The notes below the pieces were generated by a model. That model searched no databases and was not told the DNA's origin. It saw only the letters and a program-made list of their open reading frames with translations. A stretch of 33,567 nucleotides of DNA from Spirogloea muscicola (Eukaryota; Streptophyta; Zygnematophyceae; Spirogloeales; Spirogloeaceae): the NCBI GenBank assembly GCA_009602725.1, contig WELB01000310.1, forward strand, positions 66,511-100,077, given 5' to 3'. Position 1 is the first letter of the stretch, and each line of letters begins with the position of its first letter. Shown in pieces: positions 11,960-28,723 of the stretch. Position numbers and translations under genes: made by a program.

Positions 11960-12451
11960 AAGGCAATTTTGTGTATTCAGAGCAAACGAGGGCCAAATGG
12001 CTAAGTACAAAAGCAAGCACATCCAAAGACGTGCTTAAGCTCAGCAAATTGACCCGCTCAGTAACCCCTGGTCAAAACATAGAGGTCGCTAATCGATGCC
12101 TGAATACTAAATATCAGATATGAAGCCCTTCTGCCACCAACTAGAGCTCGCCCAGCTTTCTGGTGCAAAGCATTAGCCTGGGCACACTGCAAACAGGCCG
12201 CTACTCGTCGTCGCAAGAACGACACGTATGCAGCTGGCAAGCCCATCTCAGCCGGAAACACATCTGCACGATGTGTATAGCATAAAATGGCAATATTCTG
12301 GAGAAGTGTGTGGGAGCGAGGACCCAGACAGCCAAAGATGTCGACTGCCGCTGGCAGGAGCTAATCGCGTTTGGGGGTAATCAGAGTAGTGCCGTAACTT
12401 TCTTTGTTCTGCACCGCCCACTGGGTGGCCAGCGATGTGTGTCGATGCTGG
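11960..12451 (-). mobile_element. 5'-truncated family A LINE fragment (RLE domain to 3' UTR)
   Basis: Reading the minus strand from about 12451, a degenerate frame matches the plus-strand copy at 12780-13440. It contains A-G-H-A-V-G-G-A-E-Q-R-K-L-R-H-Y, then the C-terminal region with M-G-L-P-A-A-Y and A-G-R-A-L, ending S-D-L-Y-V-L-T-R-G-Y-stop near 12057. The shared 3' UTR follows down to about 11960. The 5' end is abrupt: homology to the plus copy stops at about 12451. Frameshifts and stops make it a dead copy. It forms an inverted pair with the next element. Confidence 0.8.
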
Positions 12452-12534
12452 AATTAATTTTTAGGGCATAGGCAGCGGCCTTGAAAGGAAAGGCCAGGAC
12501 ATCACATCGCTTCGCGCGCCCTCAGCTTCCACAG

Positions 12535-12600
12535 CAGAAGAAGAGCTCGCCCATAGAGAAGAGGGGCTGGCAAAGCCAACCCAAAAAGAATGAAAAAGGA
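12535..12600 (-). mobile_element. 66-bp tail-only retroinsertion with 13-bp target-site duplication
   Basis: In minus orientation this is the shared LINE tail: TTGGGTTGGC-TTT-GCCAGCCCC, then a short spacer, ATGGGCGAGC and a pyrimidine end CTTCTTCT. The stem has one mismatch. It is flanked by a perfect 13-bp direct repeat, CAGCTTCCACAGC, at 12522-12534 and 12601-12613. Nothing but the tail was inserted, consistent with extreme 5' truncation of a LINE or with a SINE-like unit. Confidence 0.8.
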
Positions 12601-12908
12601 CAGCTTCCACAGCTACTACCCCCTGGTGCTCAGCAGGAGTTAACAGAACCCGAGATCATTCTTCTCTGGGCTGCCTTTTTCCAGGGACGTCATCATCGCC
12701 GCACACTTGACATTGTGGGCGTGCAACCTGGTGGAGGACCACGGGCCCTGGTCGACGTAATGATTACGGAGGCATATAAGGGCCCAGCATCGACACACAT
12801 CGCTGGGCACGCGGTGGGCGGTGCAGAACAAAGAAAATTGCGGCACTACTCCGATTACCCCAATGCGATTAGCTCCTGCCAGCTGCAATCAACATCCATG
12901 GCTGTCTG

Positions 12909-13160
12909 AGAGAAAGAAAGTGCTCGCCCATTGAGAATAGGGGCTGGAAAAGCCAGCCCAAAAAAGAATGAACAGAGTACAAGAAGGGGGCCAGGGGAAG
13001 CGCTAAGCAGCACCTTCGGGCCGGCAGAGCCCTCGCTGCTGCCTCTGGCTCTGGCCAGGGGACCCACTTCCACGAGCCTAGCATCTCCGACCTGCGGCTG
13101 CTTAGCAGAGGTTACTGAGTGATTCGTAGCTGCTTTGTTTCTCTGTGTGCTTGTTTTTCT
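12909..13160. mobile_element. 252-bp family B LINE insertion with internal inversion and 6-bp target-site duplication
   Basis: The left part (12909-12995) is the shared 3' tail in minus orientation, with a perfect hairpin GGGCTGG/CCAGCCC at 12941-12959. The right part (about 12996-13160) is plus-oriented: the end of a family B ORF (S-D-L-R-L-L-S-R-G-Y-stop, frame disturbed) and the first half of its 3' UTR, stopping at GTTTTTCT. The two parts are adjacent in an intact family B 3' end, so one is inverted. TGTCTG flanks the unit at 12903-12908 and 13161-13166. The uninterrupted minus-strand copy shows GGCTGTCTGGGTCC at the equivalent place, which confirms the empty site. Confidence 0.85.
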
Positions 13161-13531
13161 TGTCTGGGTCCTCGTTTCCACACTCTCCTTGAACACATTG
13201 CCAATCTAGGCTACACTCGACGTGCAGATGTGTTTCCGGCTGCGATGGGCTTGCCAGCTGCATATCTGTCGCTCTTGCTGCGACGAGTTTCGGCCTGTTA
13301 GCAGCGTGCTCAGGCTAGTGCCTTGCACCAGAAGGCTGGGCGAGCTCTAGTTGGTGGTAGAAGGGCTCCGTTTCTGGCATCAAGTATTCATACATCGATT
13401 AGTGACCTTTATGGTTTGACCCGTGGTTATTGAGCGGGTCAATCTGCTGTAGGTCATGTAGATCTTTAGATGTGCTTGCCTTCGTACTTAGGCATTTGGA
13501 ATACATATGTTTCTGATACACGGAATTTTCT

Positions 13532-13580
13532 TTTTCCAGCCCCTAACCTGAGGGGCCGAGCCCTTCTCTCGAAGTCGCTG
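13532..13580 (+). mobile_element. Partial LINE tail (3' half of the hairpin and end) upstream of RH5
   Basis: TTTTCCAGCCCC, a diverged spacer, GGGGCCGAGC and CCTTCTCTCGAAG match the last 50 bases of the tail at 18700-18755. It directly continues the family A 3' UTR. This suggests that family A elements also end in this tail, or that a tail fragment inserted at that point. It ends about 150 bp before the RH5 start codon. Confidence 0.55.
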
Positions 13581-13727
13581 AACTGCCGGCTCGCACATCC
13601 GCTGCCCCGACGGTCAGCAGGCAGCAGCTGCGCTCGTCGGGAGACAAGGCGGTGCGCCCGGCGCAGTGCCGCCGCATCGTCAGTGCGCCTCGGGGTTCCG
13701 GGGTTAGGGGCGGCAGACCCCTCCGCC

Positions 13728-16700
13728 ATGGCGCTGCCCGCGCCCGCCGGCAAGGCGCGCCAGGCGGCGGCGGCGGCCGAGACCTCGCGGCGGCGCNGAA
13801 GAAGAAGAAGAGGAAGGCGGCACGCGGCGGCGCCGACGCCGAGCCTTCCGTCGGGGCAGCCGGCGGCGCCGAGCAGCCCGCGGCGGCGCGGGGAGACGAC
13901 AAGGCGGAGAGGAAGCGCGCCAGGGCTGCCGCCCGAGAGCCCGCGCCGGCAGAGCAGCCCCAGTCCCCCGGCGAGGCCCGGAGCGCTGAGGAGGCCGACG
14001 ACGGCACGGCGGCGCCCGTGAGCGTGTCGGGTGCCAGAGCGCACGAAGCGCGCTTCCAGGCGGTGCGGAGCTTCGCGGAGGCCGGCATGCCATTGGAGCT
14101 GCTGCCGGCGTGCGGGCGCTTCCGGCAGCCGTCGCCGATCCAGAGCCACGCCTGGCCCTTCCTCCTGGCCGGGCGGGACCTGGTGGGCATCGCCCGGACG
14201 GGCTCCGGCAAGACGCTGGCGTTCGGCATCCCCGCGCTGGCGCACATCCTGCGCAAGGGCCAGCGCGCCTCCAACTCCCCACTCGTCCTTGTGCTGTCCC
14301 CGACGCGCGAGCTGGCGCTGCAGGTGCACAACGCGCCCTGCGACCTCTTTCCTGTCCTTCCTGGGGCCGAACTGTGGCTGTGCTTTGCCCCGGGCAAGGC
14401 TTGGAAAGGCCTCGCCAAGCATCACCTGCGTCCGGGCAGCTGATGAGGCCCAGCATTCTGCCGCCTCTCCAGATCGCGGAAGTCATGGATGGGGCCGTCG
14501 ACAGCATCAAGACGGCATGCATCTACGTTGGAGCGCCCAAGGGGCCGCAGCGAAGTGCCATTCGCCACGGCGCTGTGCGCTCTCTCTTGATTAACCATGA
14601 TGGCATCTCTGTCTCTGCAAGGGTTGGTGCCCGAGAGCCGTGAGTGTGCAGGCTTTGACACGCATGTCCCAGTGGCACGCGCGGTCTCTGGACTCACGTC
14701 TGTGGAAGCACAACTGTGTCATGACGAGGGATTGGCCCTCTGGAGGTTGTCCTTGCAGGCGGTGTTGGTTGCCACGCCTGGGCGGCTCCTGGACTTCCTC
14801 AGCGAAGGGGCCAACTTCCTCTCAGAAGTGTCCTTCCTGGTTCGAGCCCCTGCCCTTTCAGAGCTGGTGCAACCAGCGGCAGCTTGGCAGCTGGCCATAT
14901 AGAACTGGCCGCGCTGGTTCAGCTACAGCTAGAAACCAAAAGGCATCAGAGGGCAGCCAGCGCCTGACATTGCTGGCCTTTGTGAAGGTGTTGGATGAAG
15001 CTGACCGGATGCTGGACCTTGGGTTTGAGGATGACGTTCGCAAGATCATCAGCCGGTTGCCAAATGGTGAAGTACGCCCTTACTGTTACTCACCCTCGGG
15101 GCACATGGCACCAAAATGCGATGCTGCTGTTTTTGCTCAAGATCTGGAAAGTGTTATCCCTTGGATGACTACAAGGCGTGCTTGCACGCGAAGTGTGGGC
15201 GCCCATATTGTAGAAGGCAGTCACACTTATCACTCATGTCAAGCTCTCGGTGGGACAGGTCGGCAAACAGTGATGTTTAGCGCAACCTGGCCGGCAGCTG
15301 TTGAGCAGTTAGCTACAGAGTACCTTCACAACGCCGTTAAGGTACTCATGTCAGGCCTTCAGTAGCTGTGAGAGCAATGTCCCCTGTTAGAGCTCCTGGG
15401 GCGTGTAGCTGCCCTTCCAGGACTTACATGGTGGCACAACCCTGGTCTACTGTGCCGAGTTGCTCGCCTTTAACACTTCCTGTCTGGTCCATACAGCCAG
15501 CCTTTTGAGGGCACTTCCAACAGCTTCTTTGCTGCTTGGCTCTCTGGTCCTCGCTCACGCCTCTGGACCTTGACTATTAACATTGCATTCACTAAGCTCC
15601 TGTTGTAAATGCAGGTCACAGTGGGGTCACTGGACCTTGCTGCAAACCATGATGTCAAGCAGATTGTTGAGGTGAGTATGTGATCGGGGCATCCTTCCTC
15701 CTCTGTCAATGGGCCATGGTTGCATTCGCTTGTGAATGTGAAGCACACGGGAGCATTGTCAAGACATGGCAGTAAATATGTGAAGTGAGCAGGTGGTGGA
15801 TGAAAAATCAAGGGACCGGAGATTGGAGGCGCTTCTACAGAACTATCACAAGTCGCGCAAGTAACCTGTCCTGACCTTCCTGTGCCCATGCAACAATTTT
15901 GACTGGTCTTGGAATGTCAAGTTTTTAGCGTTGTCACATAGCTGATGGAAATCATTGCATCTCTTTGTGTAGGAACCGAGTGCTAGTCTTTGTCTTGTAC
16001 AAGAAGGAGGCTCAGAGGGTGGAGCAACTGCTGCAGACCAGGTGGGGTGCTCAATCCAATAGTTACCATTGTCTGCTCATGCCTAAGGTATCTCTGTGAA
16101 CGCTGGCCATTGGCTCAAGTTGACTACATGCCGAAGTAGATACTAAACTCAATCCTGTGCAGGGGCTGGAATGTGGTGGCAGTGCACGGAGACAAAGGGC
16201 AGGCTGACCGCACACGTGCTGTTACCATCTTCAAGGCTGGGACTGTGCCACTGCTGGTGCTCCTCTCAAGCCTCAGCAGCACATTCTCCTGGACCTGCTC
16301 TTGTTCTTCTGTCAAGGTCAACAGCTGTCGGTGTACACGAACAATGCAAGACCTGATTGCTTCGTGTGTCCCAGATTGCGACAGATGTTGCCGCCAGGGG
16401 TCTAGACATCCCTGATGTTGAGTTTGTGATCAATTACTCCTTTCCTTTGACGATCGAGGATTATGTCCACCGCATTGGCCGCACTGGTCGTGCTGGTTCT
16501 AAGGGCACGGCTCACACCTTCTTCACACACAACGATCGGGTAAGACAGAGGAGTCACACATCTTGTCTCCTTCCTTGGCCTTATGTCGTTCCTTCCCCCT
16601 GAGTCTCCTTCTGTTTCAGTTATCTGATTTGCTGATGCATACTACTCGCTGATTGGTGATACAAGAATTGTGTATCAGGGCAAGGCAGGAGAACTGGTGA

Positions 16701-16993
16701 ATGTTCTGCGAGAAGCCAAGCAGGCAGTGCCTGACGAGCTTCTCAAGTTTGGCACGCATGTTAAGAAATAGGTGGGTCTTGTAAACACGTCCACCTTACA
16801 AAATTGATCATGAGCTGCCTTCAGGCATGTGCGTGTTGGGGCTTGTACTGCAGAGAGGTGGGCACCTTTTAAGCAGACGTCTAAGCAAACCTGGTTGCAA
16901 ATGCAGGAGTCGAAGCTCTATGGAGCTCACTTTAGGGACATCAGTGCCAGTGCACCCAAAGCCACAAAAATCACCTTTGATGATTCAGATTGA
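13728..16993 (+). CDS. RH5: DEAD-box RNA helicase of the RH5/DBP3 type (nucleolar)
   Basis: DBP3-type helicases act in the nucleolus in rRNA processing. Inferred exons: 13728-14323, 14473-14574, 14759-14839, 14988-15066, 15259-15341, 15615-15671, 15793-15860, 15973-16041, 16163-16256, 16375-16539, 16679-16771 (or 16759) and 16907-16993. Motifs in order: a Lys-rich N-terminal extension, Q motif [49 protein letters not shown] and [10 protein letters not shown]. The C-terminus K-L-Y-G-A-H-F matches plant RH5. Two anomalies: the ATG at 13728 is one base out of frame with the helicase, with an ambiguous base at 13797 between them, and the reading frame meets TAG at 16769-16771 directly before a GTGGGT donor. 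Using a GTTAAG donor at 16760 would avoid it. Length is about 495 or 520 residues. Confidence 0.93.
13797..13797. other. Single ambiguous base (N) with probable one-base loss
   Basis: The N separates a reading frame that starts at ATG 13728 (M-A-L-P-A-P-A-G-K) from the helicase frame that begins K-K-K-K-R-K. Restoring continuity needs two bases where one N stands. The surrounding sequence is GC-rich and followed by GAAGAAGAAGAAG, a plausible site of sequencing or assembly error. Confidence 0.8.
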
Positions 16994-17614
16994 TGATCAT
17001 TCAATTCATTCAGATTGTGGGCTTTCCAGCCGAATAAGCCAAACCGTATCAAAGCCATTGGTGCTGTCCTGTTAGAACAGATAATGGCCGGTCATATCAC
17101 AGATAATCTGAAGTTGTTGTACCGCCTTGGCCTCTAGCCATGTCTAAGCTCCTTAAGTTGAATAAGAAATTGCAAGGTAAGGCATGAGCGACTCTGTAAA
17201 GACTCTGGCCTTGTGCTCCAGAGAATACTTGCATTGTCAGTGGGCAAGCGAATGAGATGCTAAGGGCAAGTAGGAAATGGCAATGGATAGGCAGGAGGGA
17301 TGGTTCGAAGGTGTAGTCGTGCAGCTGCTAGTGAGATTGTTGTCCTCGTTGTTGTTGTTGTTGAGGTCTTGCGCAAGTACTGAAAGAGAGTTGTGGCAAG
17401 ATCAAGCTCGAAAGTAGAATTGGCGCCAGTAGCTTGCTGAAGCTCTTGCAGGCAGGAGACCACGTTGACTCCCAAAGGCAGCAACTTGATGCGGACTGCT
17501 TGTGCTGGCCTTCCCTTCGGCACCGCAGCAGCTCATCCAGTACTTGTTGTCGCACTTCTGCCCGGACCTTTACCTCATGCGCCCTCGGAGCAGCCACTTC
17601 GTCTTCCACATTCC
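16994..17614. other. Intergenic stretch between RH5 and the convergent DHBPS-like gene
   Basis: The left part should hold the RH5 3' UTR. On the minus strand two overlapping frames between 17640 and 17260 look protein-like: one contains V-R-Q-Q-V-L-D-E-L-L-R-C-R-R, the other L-L-P-L-G-V-N-V-V-S-C-L-Q-E-L-Q-Q-A-T-G. They may be 3' exons of the DHBPS-like gene or of a separate transcript. I cannot assign them to a family or fix the splicing. Confidence 0.4.
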
Positions 17615-18523
17615 TCATAGAGACCCATTGGCCAGACCATCCTCGTGGAGAGGCGGGCCTGGAGAGCCGAGCGCAATGATGTCTGCGCCCGTGATGAAGG
17701 GCACACCGTTTTCGGCAGCCCAGGCTCGCGCCTTGTCTGCAGGCAGGGCGCCGTAGTCGTCGCCGGAGTTGCTCAGCATGACACAGCCCACCTGCAGACC
17801 ACGGCGGGCCCACGAGAGGGCGGTCAGCATCGGAGGGCGAAGCCGCTGAGCTGGGGGCTGCCCAGCGCAAGCCGCGCAGCACGGCGGAGCCTGCTGCCGT
17901 CAGGCTGCTGCGTCCCATGAAGAAGAAGGGCGTACCATGAGGGGCGGGACGCCGGCGTGGCGCGCGAGCGCAACGGCGAGCTCGGTGTGGCCGGCGCGGG
18001 CGGCGAGGCCGGCGGGGCTCTCGGCGCAGAGGAAGATGTGGCCGGGCGTGTGGAACTCGGCGCCCAGCGCGTCCATGGCGGCGGGCGAGGGCGAAGGCTG
18101 GGAAGACGCGTGGTCGAGGTAGAGCTGGGCGAGGCGGCGGCAGGTGAGGGCGCGCTCGGCGTCGGGCGCGCCGGTGTGCGTTCTGCGGTGGTCCAGCGAG
18201 AGGGAGACGGAGCAGGAGCCCTGGCACATGGCGCCCGGCGCCTTGGCCAGCCGCGCCAGCAGCGGCCACGCGGGCGCCAGGCCCGGCGACGCCAGCGCGG
18301 CGCCCAGGAACGGCAGCCCGAACAGCGCCGCCACGTCCGCGCCCACGGCGATGTACAGCTCCCCACCGGCGTCCGCGCGCAGCCGCCGCAGGGCACCCGC
18401 GCCCGCGCCCGCCGCGCCGAAGAACAGGTCCACCTCCGCCTCGCGCGCCGCCGAGTCCAAAATCGCTACGGGCCGCCCCGCGCGCAGCGCCTCGGCGGCG
18501 GCGGCGGCGGCGGCGGGCGCCAT
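17615..18523 (-). CDS. 3,4-dihydroxy-2-butanone 4-phosphate synthase-like protein (RibB fold)
   Basis: DHBP synthase converts ribulose 5-phosphate to the four-carbon precursor of riboflavin. Inferred exons are 18523-17936 and 17791-17615, about 254 residues, close to stand-alone archaeal-type enzymes. Visible family motifs: L-D-S-A-A-R-E-A-E-V-D (acidic substrate/metal loop), S-L-D-H-R-R-T-H-T-G-A-P-D-A-E-R-A-L-T, F-H-T-P-G-H-I-F-L and R-A-G-H-T-E-L-A-V-A-L-A-R-H-A-G. Exon 2 continues C-V-M-L-S-N-S-G-D, where the family usually has C-E-M-L. The position usually holding Cys after the Gly of G-L-x-C reads Tyr (G-E-L-Y-I-A-V). These changes suggest altered or lost activity. Plants normally use a bifunctional RibB-RibA protein, so this may be a paralogue. 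Further 3' exons are possible. Its start lies in a very GC-rich block about 90 bp from LINE debris. Confidence 0.8.
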
Positions 18524-18611
18524 GCTCCGGAGCCCGGGATCCCGGGGTGGCGGCTGGCCAGGCCGGGGGTTTGGGGGGGGGCCTGTCGGCCAGGCCGGGC
18601 CGGGAAGCAGC

Positions 18612-18750
18612 TTTCCAAAGGTTGTTTGTTTCTTGTGTGCTTGTTTTGCTTACCGCTTCCCCCGGCCCCCTTCTCGTGCTCTGCTCAATCTTTTCCGGGC
18701 TGGCTTTTCCAGCCCCTATCCTCAATAGGCGAGCACTTTCTTCCTTTTCC
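18612..18750 (+). mobile_element. LINE family B 3' UTR and tail with perfect hairpin
   Basis: The segment contains the family B UTR phrase TTGTGTGCTTGTTTTGCTTA, then CGCTTCCCCCGGCCCCC and the hairpin GGGCTGG (18697-18703), CTTTT loop, CCAGCCC (18709-18715). ATAGGCGAGCACTTTCTTC follows. No coding sequence precedes it, so it is a 5'-truncated insertion. It sits 90-230 bp upstream of the DHBPS-like start codon, in opposite orientation to that gene. Confidence 0.8.
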
Positions 18751-18762
18751 GAAGCGGGTGGG

Positions 18763-19190
18763 GGATCGCCCGTCGCTTCTATGGAAAGCCGGTCGACTTT
18801 CCTGCAGCCGGGTCGCTGGCGCAAGTGTATCGCCTGGCCGTCTCGCTGCAGAGGTCCATGGCCCGTGCGCTGCACCTGCGTGCTGGCCGAGCCCTTGCTG
18901 CTGCCTCTGGCTCTGGCCAGGGGACATACTTCCAGGAGCATAGCCTCTCCGACCTGCGCCTGCTTAGCAGGGGTTACTGAGTGGTTAGTAGCTGCAGAGG
19001 TCTATGGCCCGGGCGCTGCACCTTCGTGTCGGCAGACCCCTCGCTGCTGCCTCTGGCCAGGGGACCCCACTTCCAGGAGCCTAGCTAGCATCTCGGATCT
19101 GCGGTTGCTTAGCAGGGGTTACTGAGTGATCGGTAGCTGCTTTGTTTCTTTGTGTGCTTGTTTTTCTTAGCGCTTCCCCTGGCCCCCTTC
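18763..19190 (+). mobile_element. LINE family B ORF end with a 146-bp tandem duplication, plus 3' UTR
   Basis: The plus strand encodes A-G-S-L-A-Q-V-Y-R-L-A-V-S-L-Q-R-S-M-A and A-G-R-A-L-A-A-A-S-G-S-G, ending S-D-L-R-L-L-S-R-G-Y-stop near 18980. The block from CTGCAGAGG at 18846 through this stop recurs at 18992-19137 with scattered differences and a disturbed frame, again ending at the same stop context. The 3' UTR then runs to CTGGCCCCCTTC at 19190, where it stops short of the hairpin. Confidence 0.8.
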
Positions 19191-19240
19191 AGAGAAGCGC
19201 GGCCAGATTGACTGGTGGCTGGGAAAGGCCAGCCCAAAGA
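19191..19240 (-). mobile_element. Diverged LINE tail hairpin at the end of a family D 3' UTR
   Basis: In minus orientation this reads TTTGGGCTGG, CCTTTC, CCAGCC, a diverged spacer and GCGCTTCTCT. The stem GGCTGG/CCAGCC (19217-19222 with 19229-19234) is still perfect. It directly continues the 3' UTR of the family D element to its right, so family D probably ends in the same type of tail. Confidence 0.65.
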
Positions 19241-20500
19241 GAGAGAAGGCGCGCGGGGCGCATGAATTGAAAGGGAGGCCAATTCAAGCCAATACATTGT
19301 TCAGGCAGAGTCGAGTGCAGACTAAACAATGCTACATAATACGGAGACCTAATCTAAGGTACCTAAGATGACATTAGTACCCACGGGTGAGCACAAACAA
19401 ATCTGACAAGCTAACTTGGGGAGCTGGAGCGCCGCCACGAAAGCCGGAGGCCTGACTTAGAGCACGCCCTGCACGTTGATGAAGAGCCAATGCTTGCGAG
19501 CGCTGCAAACTAAGCGAGAGCCGCATTCTATAATATGCAACTAAGGCCTGCGGAATGCTGGAGTGGCCCAAGCTGCCCCCCCGACTTCGACGACGCGCAT
19601 CAACCAGCCGGGCCAGATGCTGGATCAGGGAGGACCATTTCACGCCGTAGCCTCCATAGATATCCATGGCACACGGGTAAAGATGGTCCCCTCGAGGATG
19701 ATCATGGTAGTGCCGCTCCTTCTTGCGCTCCGCGCTGGACGTGGCCCAGCCAGACACGGTTGACGTTGGTGCGCCAGCCTTGTATGCGTCGATCAGTACC
19801 ACGTCCAAGAGCAGACGAGGCCCACCGCCCCGCGGGGTAGCGACCACGTCCAGACGCCGCACGTATGGCTTGCCGCGCCTTGAGGAGATTGGCATGATCC
19901 CAGACACCTCCATCGCCGGATGATATCCCGCCTCTCGCACAATGCCAAACATGGTATCCCTTAGTAGGTCGTGGGAGGCAATGCGCTCACCCCCCTCAAC
20001 ACACCTCAGCATGTGCGAAGCTAAGGCGAGCTTGTCGTCGGCAATGTGGCCACACTCGCACTGGCGGATGCCAGCCAAGCAAGGGGGGGGGAGGCCAAGG
20101 TGGTGGTGGAGCGCCGTGCGGAAAAGGTTGTCAGAAAGCCGAAGGGACTCGTAGATCGGCAGAGCGTTTAGCCACTCCGACGCGCCCGGGGAGCCGATTG
20201 AAAGGAGCCGGGTAAGGCCACGTCTATCGTCCTTGAGCAGTCCCTTCAAGTCGGAGGCGGCCTGCACGTCCGCAGCGTGTGTGTAGTGAGCCTGCGCTTT
20301 CCTATCGGAACAGCGTGCCCATGCCGCAAAATCTGCATGACCCTCGGCAAGTGTTGGTAGGGAGCACGAGAGGTCATGCAGTGCTGCGGTTAGGGAAAGC
20401 TGGAAGGGCCTGGTCCCTGTTGCAACACCCGCTAAACCCCAAAGGAATGGACAAGGTCTGAGGGAGCCTGAGTGCGAACGACTAGCACTAAGACATCAGC
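19241..20500 (-). mobile_element. Family D LINE fragment with intact zinc-RLE-C-terminal region (D3)
   Basis: On the minus strand a frame with no stop over 297 codons from 20267 to 19374 covers the C-terminal third of a non-LTR retrotransposon ORF. It continues upstream to about 20430 with F-A-A-W-A-R-C-S-D-R-K-A-Q-A-H. Counting from 20267, a zinc motif C70-x-C72-x12-H85-x3-C89 is followed by G-G-E-R-I-A-S-H-D-L-L-R-D. A restriction-like endonuclease core follows, with R-R-L-D140, x14 and L-L-L-D155-V-V, then a basic R-K-K-E-R-H-Y. The end is A-G-R-A-L then S-D-L-F-V-L-T-R-G-Y-stop. About 130 bp of 3' UTR follow. RT motifs are missing, so it is 5'-truncated. The long open frame suggests a recent insertion. 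Confidence 0.88.
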
Positions 20501-20512
20501 CAGGGAACACTC

Positions 20513-20849
20513 AGTAACCTCCAGTCAGGAGATGCAAGTCTGAGTAGCTAGCTGGCGGAAAGACGTCGCCCTGACGGAAGCCGGAGGCGCCCGCCAAAGC
20601 TCGGCCTGCGCGCACGTGAACCGCGAAGGCAAGGGACCGCTGCATCGAGACGGCCAAACGCATACGGAAGACTTGAGCGAGGGACCCGGCGACGTTGAAG
20701 CCGGGCTGCTCGCCCTGCTGCCCGAGGCGGTAGGCCGCTGCACGCCGCGCCAAGCGGTGGAGCAAGTCAAGCCATTTCGAGCCAAAGGCTCCGTGCACGT
20801 CGACTGCCAGTGGAACAAACTCGACTCCCACCGGGTGGTCCGAGTATTT
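20513..20849 (-). mobile_element. 5'-truncated LINE fragment (family C), ORF end
   Basis: The minus strand encodes K-Y-S-D-H-P-V-G-V-E-F, A-V-D-V-H-G-A-F-G, F-R-M-R-L-A-V-S-M-Q-R-S and A-G-R-A-L-A-G-A-S-G-F-R-Q-G-D, ending S-D-L-H-L-L-T-G-G-Y-stop at 20513-20515. The start is cut at the abutting tail insertion at 20850. It is closest to the element at 21192-22914: the last 100 bp (20513-20612) are nearly identical to 21195-21296. Confidence 0.82.
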
Positions 20850-20925
20850 CTCGTACTCTGTTCATTCTTTTTTGGGCCTTTTCCAGCCCCTATCCTCAAT
20901 GGGCGAGCACTTTCTTTCCTGAAGG
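20850..20925 (+). mobile_element. LINE tail with a shortened hairpin, tail-only copy
   Basis: CTCGTACTCTGTTCATTC, then GGGCCTTTTCCAGCCCC, a spacer, ATGGGCGAGCACTTTCTTTC match the tail. Three bases (TGG) of the left stem arm are missing, leaving a weak stem. It lies in plus orientation between two minus-strand LINE fragments. No target-site duplication is evident, so it may mark a rearranged junction. Confidence 0.7.
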
Positions 20926-21183
20926 TGCGCGGGGCGCATGAAATGAAATGGAGGCCAATCCAAGCCAATACACTGTTAAGGCAGAGTCTAGGGCAAACTA
21001 AACAGGGCTACATAATACGGAAAACGAAACCAAGCTGCCTAAGGTGACATCAGTACCCACGGGTGAGCACAAACAAATTGACAAGCTAACTTGGGGAGCT
21101 GGAGCGCCGCCACGAAAGCCGGAGGCCTGACTTAAAGCGCGCCCTGCACGTTGATGAAGAGCCAATGCTTGCGAGCGCTGCTG
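20926..21183 (-). mobile_element. 5'-truncated family D LINE 3' end (D2)
   Basis: This is a near copy of 19245-19507: the minus strand encodes S-Q-A-L-A-L-H-Q-R-A-G-R-A-L-S, then a C-terminus like that of D3 and about 130 bp of the same 3' UTR. It starts abruptly at the codon for Q-R-S and directly abuts the stop codon of the element to its right. One base is missing in the last codons (CAAATTGACAAGC against CAAATCTGACAAGC), which shifts the frame relative to D3. Confidence 0.8.
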
Positions 21184-21191
21184 ACTAACGC

Positions 21192-22914
21192 TCAGTAACC
21201 TCTAGTCAGGAGGTGCAAGTCTGAGTAGCTAGCCGGCGGAAAGACGTCGCCCTGACGGAAGCCGGAGGCCGCCGCCAAAGCTCGGCCTGCGCGACAAACG
21301 CATTCAGTAGCAGGACACAAGACCCAAATGCACCGAGCCACCGAGAAGGGCTGCAACCTGTTCCCGGCGCCGCTGGTCAGCTTGAGAAGCCAGCAGCGAA
21401 AGTAACGAGGACCACCGACCCCCGTAACACCCATGGATGTCCATGGTCAGGGGGTAAAAGGTATCACCCGCCGGGTGGTCCTTGTACTTGTGCAACTTCT
21501 TCTGTTCGGCCACCTTCACGGCATAGCCGGTCTCAGAAGTAATGGGGCCCTTCGTCCGGAAGCTGTTGGTCAGGACGACGTCCATGAGGAGCCGCTTGCC
21601 AACTCCCAGTGGGACGCCAACCAGATCGATATGCCTCGTCCGAGGGACCCCGTTGCGGAGTTGGACGGGCATCACCCCAGTGCTCTCCAACGCCACTTGA
21701 TGTCCCGCCTCCTTGACGATGTCATACATGGCGTCACGTAGGAGGTTGTGGGAGCCCGTGCGCTCACTGCCTCTGGCACACCTCAGCTTGTGGTCAGCCA
21801 TGAGCAATGCATCATGCTCAATAAGCCCACATTCACACTGGGTCACCCCTGCCAAGCACAGGGATGGTAAGCCAAGGCGGCGGCGCATTGCATCGCAAAA
21901 CAAAGCATTTTCCATCCGCAAGCCCGCATGCAAAGGCAAAGCGCGGAGCCACTCAGACGCTCCCAGAGACGATACAGATAGGAGCCGAGCCTGGCCTCGA
22001 GCATCCCCTTGTTTTTCTTAGCGCTTCCCCTGGCCCCCTTCTCGTACTCTGTTCATTCCTTTTTGGGCTGGCTTTCCAGCCCCTAGTCTCAATGGGCGAG
22101 CACTTTCTTCCTTGGAGGTCCGGAGATGCTCCAGTGGTTGCTCGTCTGCAGCACGGGAAAACCGCGATTGAGCCTTGACATCGGAAACGTCAGCCCAGGC
22201 AGCAAAACTAACAGGTATGCGACGAAGAGGTCCTGTTGGCATGCTTTGAGGTTCACTTGGAAAGGCGGACTCCCCGGAACCACGTTACTGATGTGAGGCG
22301 CCAATACACGTTGTTGCTCAAGGACGAATCGTCCAGATATGGACGAAGCCACTTGAGCCCAGCAGCCAAGGTACGCTGGTCTGCATAAGCGGACCAAGGG
22401 GCGAACCAAGCCCACCGTGGCGTATGGGCAGCGTACATTGCACCAGTGCTGTTGGAGACTGCTCTAGGAGTGGGTGAGCAATCAGATCAGCAGGGCATTG
22501 CTGAAGCTTGACATCAATGGTTGCATAGATAGCATCCAAGCTGACCAATGGTGAGACCGTACGCAGGAGGTAGCACGGCCGCTGTGCCACACTCCTGGTC
22601 AAAATGGCCACTGCCATCTGAGAGTCCCCAAGGCTGGGGAGCTCTGGCAGGACCTGCATGTATCCTTGGAGACGAGCAAGGACAGCACCCTCCGAGAAAG
22701 ACGGGTCCCCTAGTGGCACTCCCAAGATCCTCAAGCCGCCCTCTGGAGTCTGACAAGATGTCGGCAACGAGGGGAAGAGGAAAAGAGGGATGCCAATGGG
22801 GGACCAGGCAGAGCACTTAGCCGGATTGACCCCAAGCCCGATAAGCTGGAGCTGGTGCTGAAGCGTGCCAAAAGCTCGCAGCACCTCCTCTGGGGGGCCG
22901 AGGAGCGTGGTATC
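21192..22914 (-). mobile_element. LINE fragment with RT thumb region, zinc motif and RLE (D1), cut by gap
   Basis: Reading leftward from the gap, the frame shows the post-catalytic RT region (G-L-G-V-N-P-A-K-C, then L-R-I-L-G-V-P-L-G-D) and a linker F-A-A-W-A-D-V-S-D-V-K-A-Q. After a 98-bp tail insertion (22012-22109) come the zinc motif C-E-C-x12-H-x3-C and the endonuclease core T-R-H-I-D, x14, L-L-M-D-V-V, with the same spacing as in D3. The ORF end S-D-L-H-L-L-T-R-G-Y-stop is at 21195. Relative to the family C copy, a deletion of about 45 bp near 21297 removes part of the C-terminal helix. The RT catalytic motifs would lie in or beyond the gap. Confidence 0.85.
22012..22109 (+). mobile_element. 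98-bp tail-only LINE insertion with 5-bp target-site duplication
   Basis: The insert begins TTTTTCTTAGCGCTTCCCC, contains a perfect hairpin GGGCTGG (22065-22071), CTTT, CCAGCCC (22076-22082) and ends GGGCGAGCACTTTCTT. CCTTG occurs at 22007-22011 and 22110-22114. It interrupts the minus-strand LINE between its linker (R-A-A-D-E-Q-P-L-E-H-L-R-T-S-K) and the next conserved block (L-G-A-S-E-W-L). The related element at 20.2 kb is continuous at this point, so the empty site is known. Confidence 0.82.
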
Positions 22915-22993
22915 NNNNNNNNNNNNNNNNNNNNNNNNNNNNNNNNNNNNNNNNNNNNNNNNNNNNNNNNNNNNNNNNNNNNNNNNNNNNNNN
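22915..22993. other. Assembly gap (79 N)
   Basis: A run of 79 N separates a LINE RT fragment on the left from the first coding sequence of the P4-ATPase on the right. The true length is unknown. It probably hides the promoter and start codon of the flippase gene and the 5' part of the LINE insertion. Confidence 0.98.
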
Positions 22994-27676: not shown

Positions 27677-28723
27677 TGACAACATTCATTCAGTGTATTT
27701 ATGATGAGGCACTTGAGAAAATTTCAAATTAACGGACGGCTCGTTTGCTCTTGATACACTGCCGCCTCAAAGAGAGCATACAGGCAAAGTGACATCTTGA
27801 TGCTTTTTGGTGATAGTCCGTATGACGAATGTCCTCGTAAGAAGTCTCTCTAGGTGATCAAGGGAAGCTCTCTAGAGCTCTCTTGGAAGCTGCATCCATC
27901 CTGGCTACCAAGTTAGTTGTTGGCAGTAAATGAGGCACCCTACGCCTGCCAGGTGGCACAGATCTGGACGATTTTGTTGCTTTCCGGCCCTCCCCAGGTC
28001 ATAGATTCACTACAGAACACAAGTTAGTGCAGCCAGGTTAGTGCCAGATCAACATGTTAGTGCAGCCAGGTTAGTGCCAGATCAACATGTGGCAGTGCAG
28101 TCAAGTCACACGCAAGCTGAAACAGCACTACTAGCTACAAGGATATTCCCCCGTCTGACCTGCGCAACCTTACGACCTGCCAAGCCTCTCCTATTGTTCA
28201 GACATATTTGTTGTACATCTACAGTGCAAGGCCTACTTAAGTCCTATCATTGCATGGTCTCAGTCCCTGAATTACCTCCACGATTGTTGTCTGACAGCCA
28301 ACCTGATGTCTATTGCTGGCTTGCCCATCCTGCACAGTGAGAACCATTCCAGAAGCATGCAGTATGAGCACTTCCCCAGTCATCCTCTTGCACAACCACC
28401 CCAAGACGTCCACATGCAGATCGAGCAAAGGTGTGCTTTGCAACAGAAGTCCACCCATCAGCATAAGTACAAGTCTGGAGACAGCAATGCCTTGAGCTTT
28501 ATCAGCTTGCTAAGCTGGACAAGGCAAGAGCATACACCTGCCATGTGCCATTATGTTGTTGTAGGTATGACCCTGTCACAAGCCTTGATCAAGCCAATGT
28601 GGCTTTCTTGCCCTTCGCTTCGTGTGCCTGCATCACCCCAGCGCGGCTTTGAAGTACAGCAGTGACAACCAAGAGAAAGTGCGCCAATCAAACCCAGTGA
28701 CATGAGCAGATAATAGATAACAG
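27677..28723. other. Intergenic DNA between convergent P4-ATPase and PEX1
   Basis: The two genes converge, so both 3' UTRs lie here. Apart from a 33-bp tandem duplication at 28023-28088 I see no gene. An open frame of about 119 codons at 28306-28665 (plus) has no recognisable domain and an overlapping rival frame, and is probably chance. Possible downstream exons of PEX1 cannot be excluded. Confidence 0.5.
28023..28088 (+). repeat. 33-bp perfect tandem duplication
   Basis: The unit GTTAGTGCAGCCAGG followed by TTAGTGCCAGATCAACAT occurs twice in tandem, at 28023-28055 and 28056-28088, without differences. Each unit itself contains two GTTAGTGC words. The perfect identity suggests a recent duplication or a polymorphic minisatellite. 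Confidence 0.9.

Follow-up and report, generated by a model that had tools for sequence, protein, structure and literature searches.

In the stringent-type LINEs ZfL2-1, ZfL2-2 and UnaL2, a short stem-loop lies near the 3' end of the LINE RNA, and the part of PMC4176376 that deals with these elements reports experiments showing that the stem-loop is required and that the protein binds it. In R2 and related LINEs, a restriction-like endonuclease (RLE) lies at the C-terminus; the domain descriptions in PMC5678591 give RLE domains as a helix followed by three strands, a second helix and a further strand, and the CCHC knuckle as spaced CX2-3CX7-8HX4C. Chlamydomonas RandI/Dualen and SINEX are LINEs with short partners of common 3' ends, in the account of PMC3747384, which gives one SINEX tail as (CTTT)n and the RandI tails as (ATT)n and (CTATTT)n, and Dualen is described in PMC4640811 as possessing both APE and RLE. 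The section of PMC3747384 on monocots describes 3' hairpins of L1s and SINEs, with a conserved CGAG 3' of the stem and UCU in the loop, and PMC8226300 is a further paper among those used for comparison.

We analyzed a window of 33,567 bases, i.e. the whole stretch of DNA, to which all copy counts given here refer. Its broken LINEs and interrupted genes point to a eukaryotic origin; an algal host is a guess. Two clusters of broken LINEs, mutually related by self-BLAST, lie between its genes at about 11.9-13.6 kb and 18.6-22.9 kb, and several LINE copies in them (families A, B and D) end in a tail of about 60 nt. Like the stringent-type elements, these LINEs have a short stem-loop near the RNA 3' end, known here from sequence alone; they differ in that the endonuclease-like part is C-terminal, whereas in the stringent-type elements, as described, the endonuclease precedes the reverse transcriptase. 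R2 proper inserts into 28S rDNA, while the readable targets here are other LINE copies. As in Chlamydomonas, LINEs occur with short partners of common 3' ends; RandI is set apart by the published description of its tails, and the 5' part of the element, with which a Dualen or RandI would be compared, is absent from the window. Monocot L1s belong to the L1 clade and mostly end in poly(A), unlike the tail described here. In the open-licence literature on algal or RLE-type LINEs, we found no earlier description of this tail, and the text of PMC13188248 contains none of the RNA-structure terms looked for.

Seven tail copies were found, four on the forward strand and three on the reverse. The matches of a model built from all seven, correct to within a few bases, are 12912-12972 (-), 22052-22111 (+), 18684-18744 (+), 20861-20918 (+), 12536-12595 (-), 13514-13570 (+) and 19191-19247 (-). 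No further copy in the window scored below E 5.4 with this model, which we excluded as evidence because the same seven copies had built it. All seven places named in a previous sequence-only reading hold tail-related sequence; their placement on both strands had not been mentioned there. The exact stem GGGCTGG-loop-CCAGCCC (7 + 7) occurs three times in the window compared with 0 expected from 100 shuffles. This 7-bp stem (stem 1) is intact in the copies at 12.9, 18.7 and 22.1 kb, has seven pairs including one G-U at 12.5 kb, and is reduced to 6 bp in the family D copy at 19.2 kb; in the copy at 20.9 kb the 5' arm is three bases short, and it is missing altogether from the family A copy at 13.5 kb, leaving a usable stem 1 in 5 of the 7 copies. 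To the earlier tally of three 7-bp stems and one of 6 bp, this adds the G-U copy. Exact GGGCGAGC is present in four of the seven tails. Every copy finishes in a run of pyrimidines at its 3' end, the 5' end varies, and no poly(A) follows the tail in any of the seven, as had been claimed. With a sequence-only model, the tail's 5' half also matched weakly at 12656-12683 (+; E 0.005), within or beside family A coding sequence.

The tail occupies the 3' end of LINE copies whose junctions can be read in several cases. A solo tail of 65 nt (insert 12536-12600, tail 12536-12595, reverse strand) is flanked by a 13-bp direct repeat at 12523-12535, on its 3' side, and 12601-12613, a target-site duplication of a length reached by none of 3000 random pairs of 20-nt flanks, the longest random share being 10. 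The tail at 12912-12972 (-) is the 3' end of a 5'-inverted B insertion (12909-13161) in family A coding sequence, flanked by the 5-bp target-site duplication GTCTG (12904-12908 on the left, 13162-13166 on the right); the empty GTCTG site is uninterrupted in a second A copy (12310-12350). The inverted 5' segment (13007-13161, +) contains the C-terminal coding end, the stop and the start of the UTR up to CTTGTTTTTCTT; it and the remainder (about 12909-13009) are adjacent in the element (CTTGTTTTTCTT / CTTAGCGC) and stand in opposite orientation here. For L1, such an inverted form is explained by twin priming in PMC4245944, whose experiments with three LINEs in cultured cells are described as giving inversions once with Nimb-2_DR and otherwise with human L1 in human cells, the latter mostly flanked by duplications of 10-20 bp. 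The inverted copy seen here, with its duplication of 5 bp, deserves attention, since the element is apparently of RLE type and the inversions in that published account are nearly confined to human L1.

In the second cluster, a 5'-truncated B end (18625-18746, +) consists of a piece of the UTR and the tail, with the intact stem at 18697-18715. Family B coding sequence ends in ...SDLRLLSRGY with a stop at 19123, followed by the UTR and then the tail; this C-terminal coding end and 3' UTR (19015-19190, +) are broken at 19190 by a D insertion, beyond which the UTR continues into its tail (20848-20918, +), the one whose stem-1 5' arm is three bases short. Because the D copy (19191-20847) lies inside the B 3' UTR, flanked on each side by TTC (a 3-bp repeat), the 3' end of D can be read directly, at ...GGCCGCGCTTCTCT; its tail (19191-19254, -) has the 6-bp stem 1 and ends in ...CTGGCCGCGCTTCTCT where it meets the B UTR. 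A solo B tail of 106 nt (22008-22113, +), with intact 7-bp stem, lies antisense in the coding sequence of the second D copy (D2), and no target-site duplication was found at its junctions there. The C-terminal coding end of family B is also tandemly duplicated in this region, over about 146 nt (18845-19140, 81% identical), and a 107-bp C-terminal fragment of family E occurs at 20506-20612 and 21187-21293 (-; 94% identical); both copies of this fragment end just past the stop codon and are joined there, without a tail, to family D sequence.

The claim that the tail forms the 3' terminus of LINE copies resembling products of target-primed reverse transcription is supported by the 13-bp and 5-bp duplications, by the solo tail within D2 coding sequence and by the LINE-in-LINE junction. 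Spread of these segments by recombination or duplication within the cluster, and not by retrotransposition, is very improbable: the mosaic character of the region, with its tandem duplication at 18845-19140 and an E fragment at two places, would suit such a process, but the 13- and 5-bp target-site duplications, the precise-ended insertions in coding sequence and the combination of a fixed 3' end with a variable 5' end argue against it.

The two solo tails, of 65 and 106 nt, could alternatively belong to a SINE or another non-autonomous family with a borrowed LINE tail, and the Chlamydomonas SINEs with LINE-shared tails described in PMC3747384 provide a precedent. We consider this unlikely, given that the short copies begin at different points of one UTR (the 12.5-kb copy just before a U-rich run, those at 22 and 18 kb further up) and share no separate head, so that ordinary 5' truncation is enough to account for them; furthermore, the window contains no tRNA gene, and no Rfam family reached its gathering score there.

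The motif had been claimed as shared across LINE 3' ends, which holds for B, D and, in part, A. Presence of the tail after the family D UTR was confirmed at 19.2 kb, that is, at one of two D 3' ends, the other (20921) adjoining an antisense B tail. For family A, where a tail had been thought probable, one of three ends carries a half tail (13514-13573, +) that consists of the 3' half without the stem-1 5' arm and folds into a second hairpin (hairpin 2, GCCCCU/AGGGGC), and the other two ends have no recognizable tail. The tail alignments B-D and B-A outscore all 3000 plain shuffles; with dinucleotide shuffling, the B-D score was attained once in 5000 trials and the B-A score never. In contrast to the tails, the pieces of UTR upstream gave no significant alignment (p = 0.33 for B-D, 0.06 for B-A and 0.86 for A-D; for B, the 69 nt preceding the D insertion were used). 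The likeness of B and D lies in stem 1 and its loop, that of B and A in the 3' half, and the tails of A and D are barely alike (p = 0.03), with their best match between non-corresponding places.

A sequence-only profile of five B-type copies recovered the A tail with 18.2 bits (E 7e-5) and the D tail with 15.8 bits (E 4e-4); the training copies are found by construction, so only these two tails are independent. After addition of stem 1 to the same profile, the values became 10.3 bits (E 2.5) for A and 16.3 bits (E 0.074) for D; the E-values with and without the stem are rough and scored differently, and judged by bits A drops while D is nearly unchanged. As far as its sequence goes, the tail is common to the families, beyond what descent within a single one would give.

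The C-terminal coding sequence of the first D copy (D1, 19377-20495, -; 373 aa) includes a Cys/His knuckle and a restriction-like endonuclease-like domain, and that of D2 (21307-22017, -) the motif KLHKY. Exact KX2KY occurs in D2 only, KX2HY in D1 and in one family A copy (A2). The first three PDB matches to the predicted fold of the D protein are the R2 proteins 9dou, 9nl3 and 9nl2 (Foldseek probability 0.99-1.00, E 7.7e-3 to 1.0e-2), with no PDB match at E 0.001. The predicted model, which is poor (mean pLDDT 42.7), has the order helix-strand-strand-strand-helix-strand known from RLE domains. The knuckle spacing is CX1CX12HX3C in both D copies, which differs from the published R2/RLE spacing. 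In sequence searches, none of seven LINE pieces matched a Pfam family at E<1 and the D profile matched nothing in the PDB. The D2 coding sequence upstream (22321-22914, -), truncated by an assembly gap at 22915, is read from its motifs as the putative end of the reverse transcriptase; it matched no family, four PDB matches by sequence were weak and unrelated, and its structure model (pLDDT 34) was unusable. On a low-confidence model that combines a PD-(D/E)XK fold with KX2KY, the C-terminus of the carrier LINE looks like an R2-type restriction-like endonuclease, and shares with R2/RLE LINEs a predicted C-terminal fold with KX2(K/H)Y. The assembly gap itself (22915-22993, 79 N) interrupts D2 upstream of the endonuclease, just before the gene for a phospholipid-translocating ATPase.

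We consider it probable that the ~60-nt repeat is the 3'-terminal tail of apparently RLE-type (R2-like) LINEs. The element RNA would end in this tail instead of poly(A); the element's reverse transcriptase would most likely recognize the tail, with target-primed reverse transcription starting from the pyrimidine-rich end; frequent early stops would give copies with little beyond the tail. In such a scheme, the tail would be bound by protein. A tail sometimes left alone upon insertion is what would be expected of a signal for the start of copying, and the arrangement is of a known kind. Since a 3'-terminal sequence common to LINE ends is found in B and D, and by half in A, the tail may work like that of a stringent-type LINE. 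Points contrary to the proposal include the missing tails at two of the three A ends and at one of the two D ends, the absence of a duplication at the 22-kb solo tail and the D-in-B repeat of just 3 bp; the stem without compensatory change, the B tails as diverged as their surroundings, the slight likeness of A and D tails, the poor protein model, the PDB matches all short of E 0.001, the deviant knuckle spacing and the missing Pfam match also count against it. The existence of solo copies allows the part needed for priming to be narrowed to about 60 nt. If the proposal is true, it adds an apparently RLE-type group of LINEs with a compact, poly(A)-free tail common to families.

Within the tail, the 7-bp hairpin would be what is read, as opposed to the adjacent linear sequence. 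The sequence-only reading treated this hairpin as a conserved feature, a view that our analysis did not bear out, given the lack of double changes in stem 1, a weak gain in folding and the failure of the stem to help the profile find the A and D tails. None of the seven pairs of stem 1 shows a compensatory change, a comparison of low power because five of the seven copies are of one type and B and D have the same stem letters. In stem 1, 80.4% of cells are paired, which is no better than in shuffles. Compared with shuffles, single copies fold more stably by 1.3-1.9 sd in five of the seven tails and by 3.2 sd in D, and less stably by 0.6 sd in the remaining one. Identity among B tails (87-95%) compares with 81-92% for the neighboring coding sequence and UTR, which gives no sign of added constraint in family B; as these copies are dead and their tails have diverged like their surroundings, conservation of the stem in B says little.

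RNAalifold, applied to the seven tails, picks hairpin 2 (GCCCCUAU/AUGGGCgAGC), which uses the GCCC of stem 1 and pairs in 89.3% of cells with one double change. This preference raises the possibility, which we consider less likely than not, that recognition is by the linear 3' sequence (CCAGCCCCUA...CGAGC-pyrimidines) or by hairpin 2 using it, stem 1 being incidental or specific to B and D. Such recognition would fit family A, which lacks stem 1 but forms a hairpin 2 of 6 bp favored by energy (-11.3 kcal/mol), as well as the profile scores, with 18.2 and 15.8 bits for the A and D tails without the stem compared to 10.3 and 16.3 with it. It is less easily reconciled with the far greater stability of stem 1 (-10.9 to -13.1 kcal/mol, versus -4.7 to -7.2 for hairpin 2) in the five copies where stem 1 is usable, or with the B-D likeness, which lies in stem 1 and its loop and not in the 3' half. 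Moreover, the pairing of hairpin 2, with its single double change, is within the range of shuffles (62 of 500 as high). A slid control favors both hairpins, at most 56.5% (stem 1) and 53.6% (hairpin 2) of cells being paired when slid, with both structures derived from the same seven sequences. The 20.9-kb copy is divided between the two, with about 0.35 for hairpin 2 versus about 0.63. CGAG after hairpin 2 in six of the seven tails and UCU in its loop in three resemble the monocot hairpins, in two very short motifs. A role of stem 1 in the proposed LINE tail is plausible.

The tail has one GCCC between two GGGC, and a two-state RNA could be imagined in which this GCCC pairs upstream (hairpin 1, the favored state for B and D) or downstream (hairpin 2, favored in A); the reverse transcriptase might use one state for binding and the other for the start of copying, with the families differing in the state stabilized. 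On seven sequences, we regard such a switch as distinctly unlikely.

Relatives were also sought elsewhere. Protein searches gave no relatives for any of 6 stretches in viral contigs or 59 in bacterial and archaeal genomes, collections that are non-eukaryotic; one 25-mer had no match in the viral contigs and another none in the bacterial and archaeal genomes. Two pattern matches in viral contigs (L001 and L002) lie in unrelated sequence and, on inspection by eye, were put down to chance. A scan of 18600-22150 against Rfam gave no R2 family at E<10; two matches to this region (E 0.027 and 8.7) were rejected as unrelated, both being under the family cut-off.

As for the host genes around the clusters, eight pieces were scanned; four had no match at E<0.01 and one had a match below its cut-off, and the other matches, one each, were to a phospholipid-translocating ATPase, DHBP synthase and an AAA+ lid domain. 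The window also contains a tandem pair of a 33-nt unit at 28019-28084, 97% identical.
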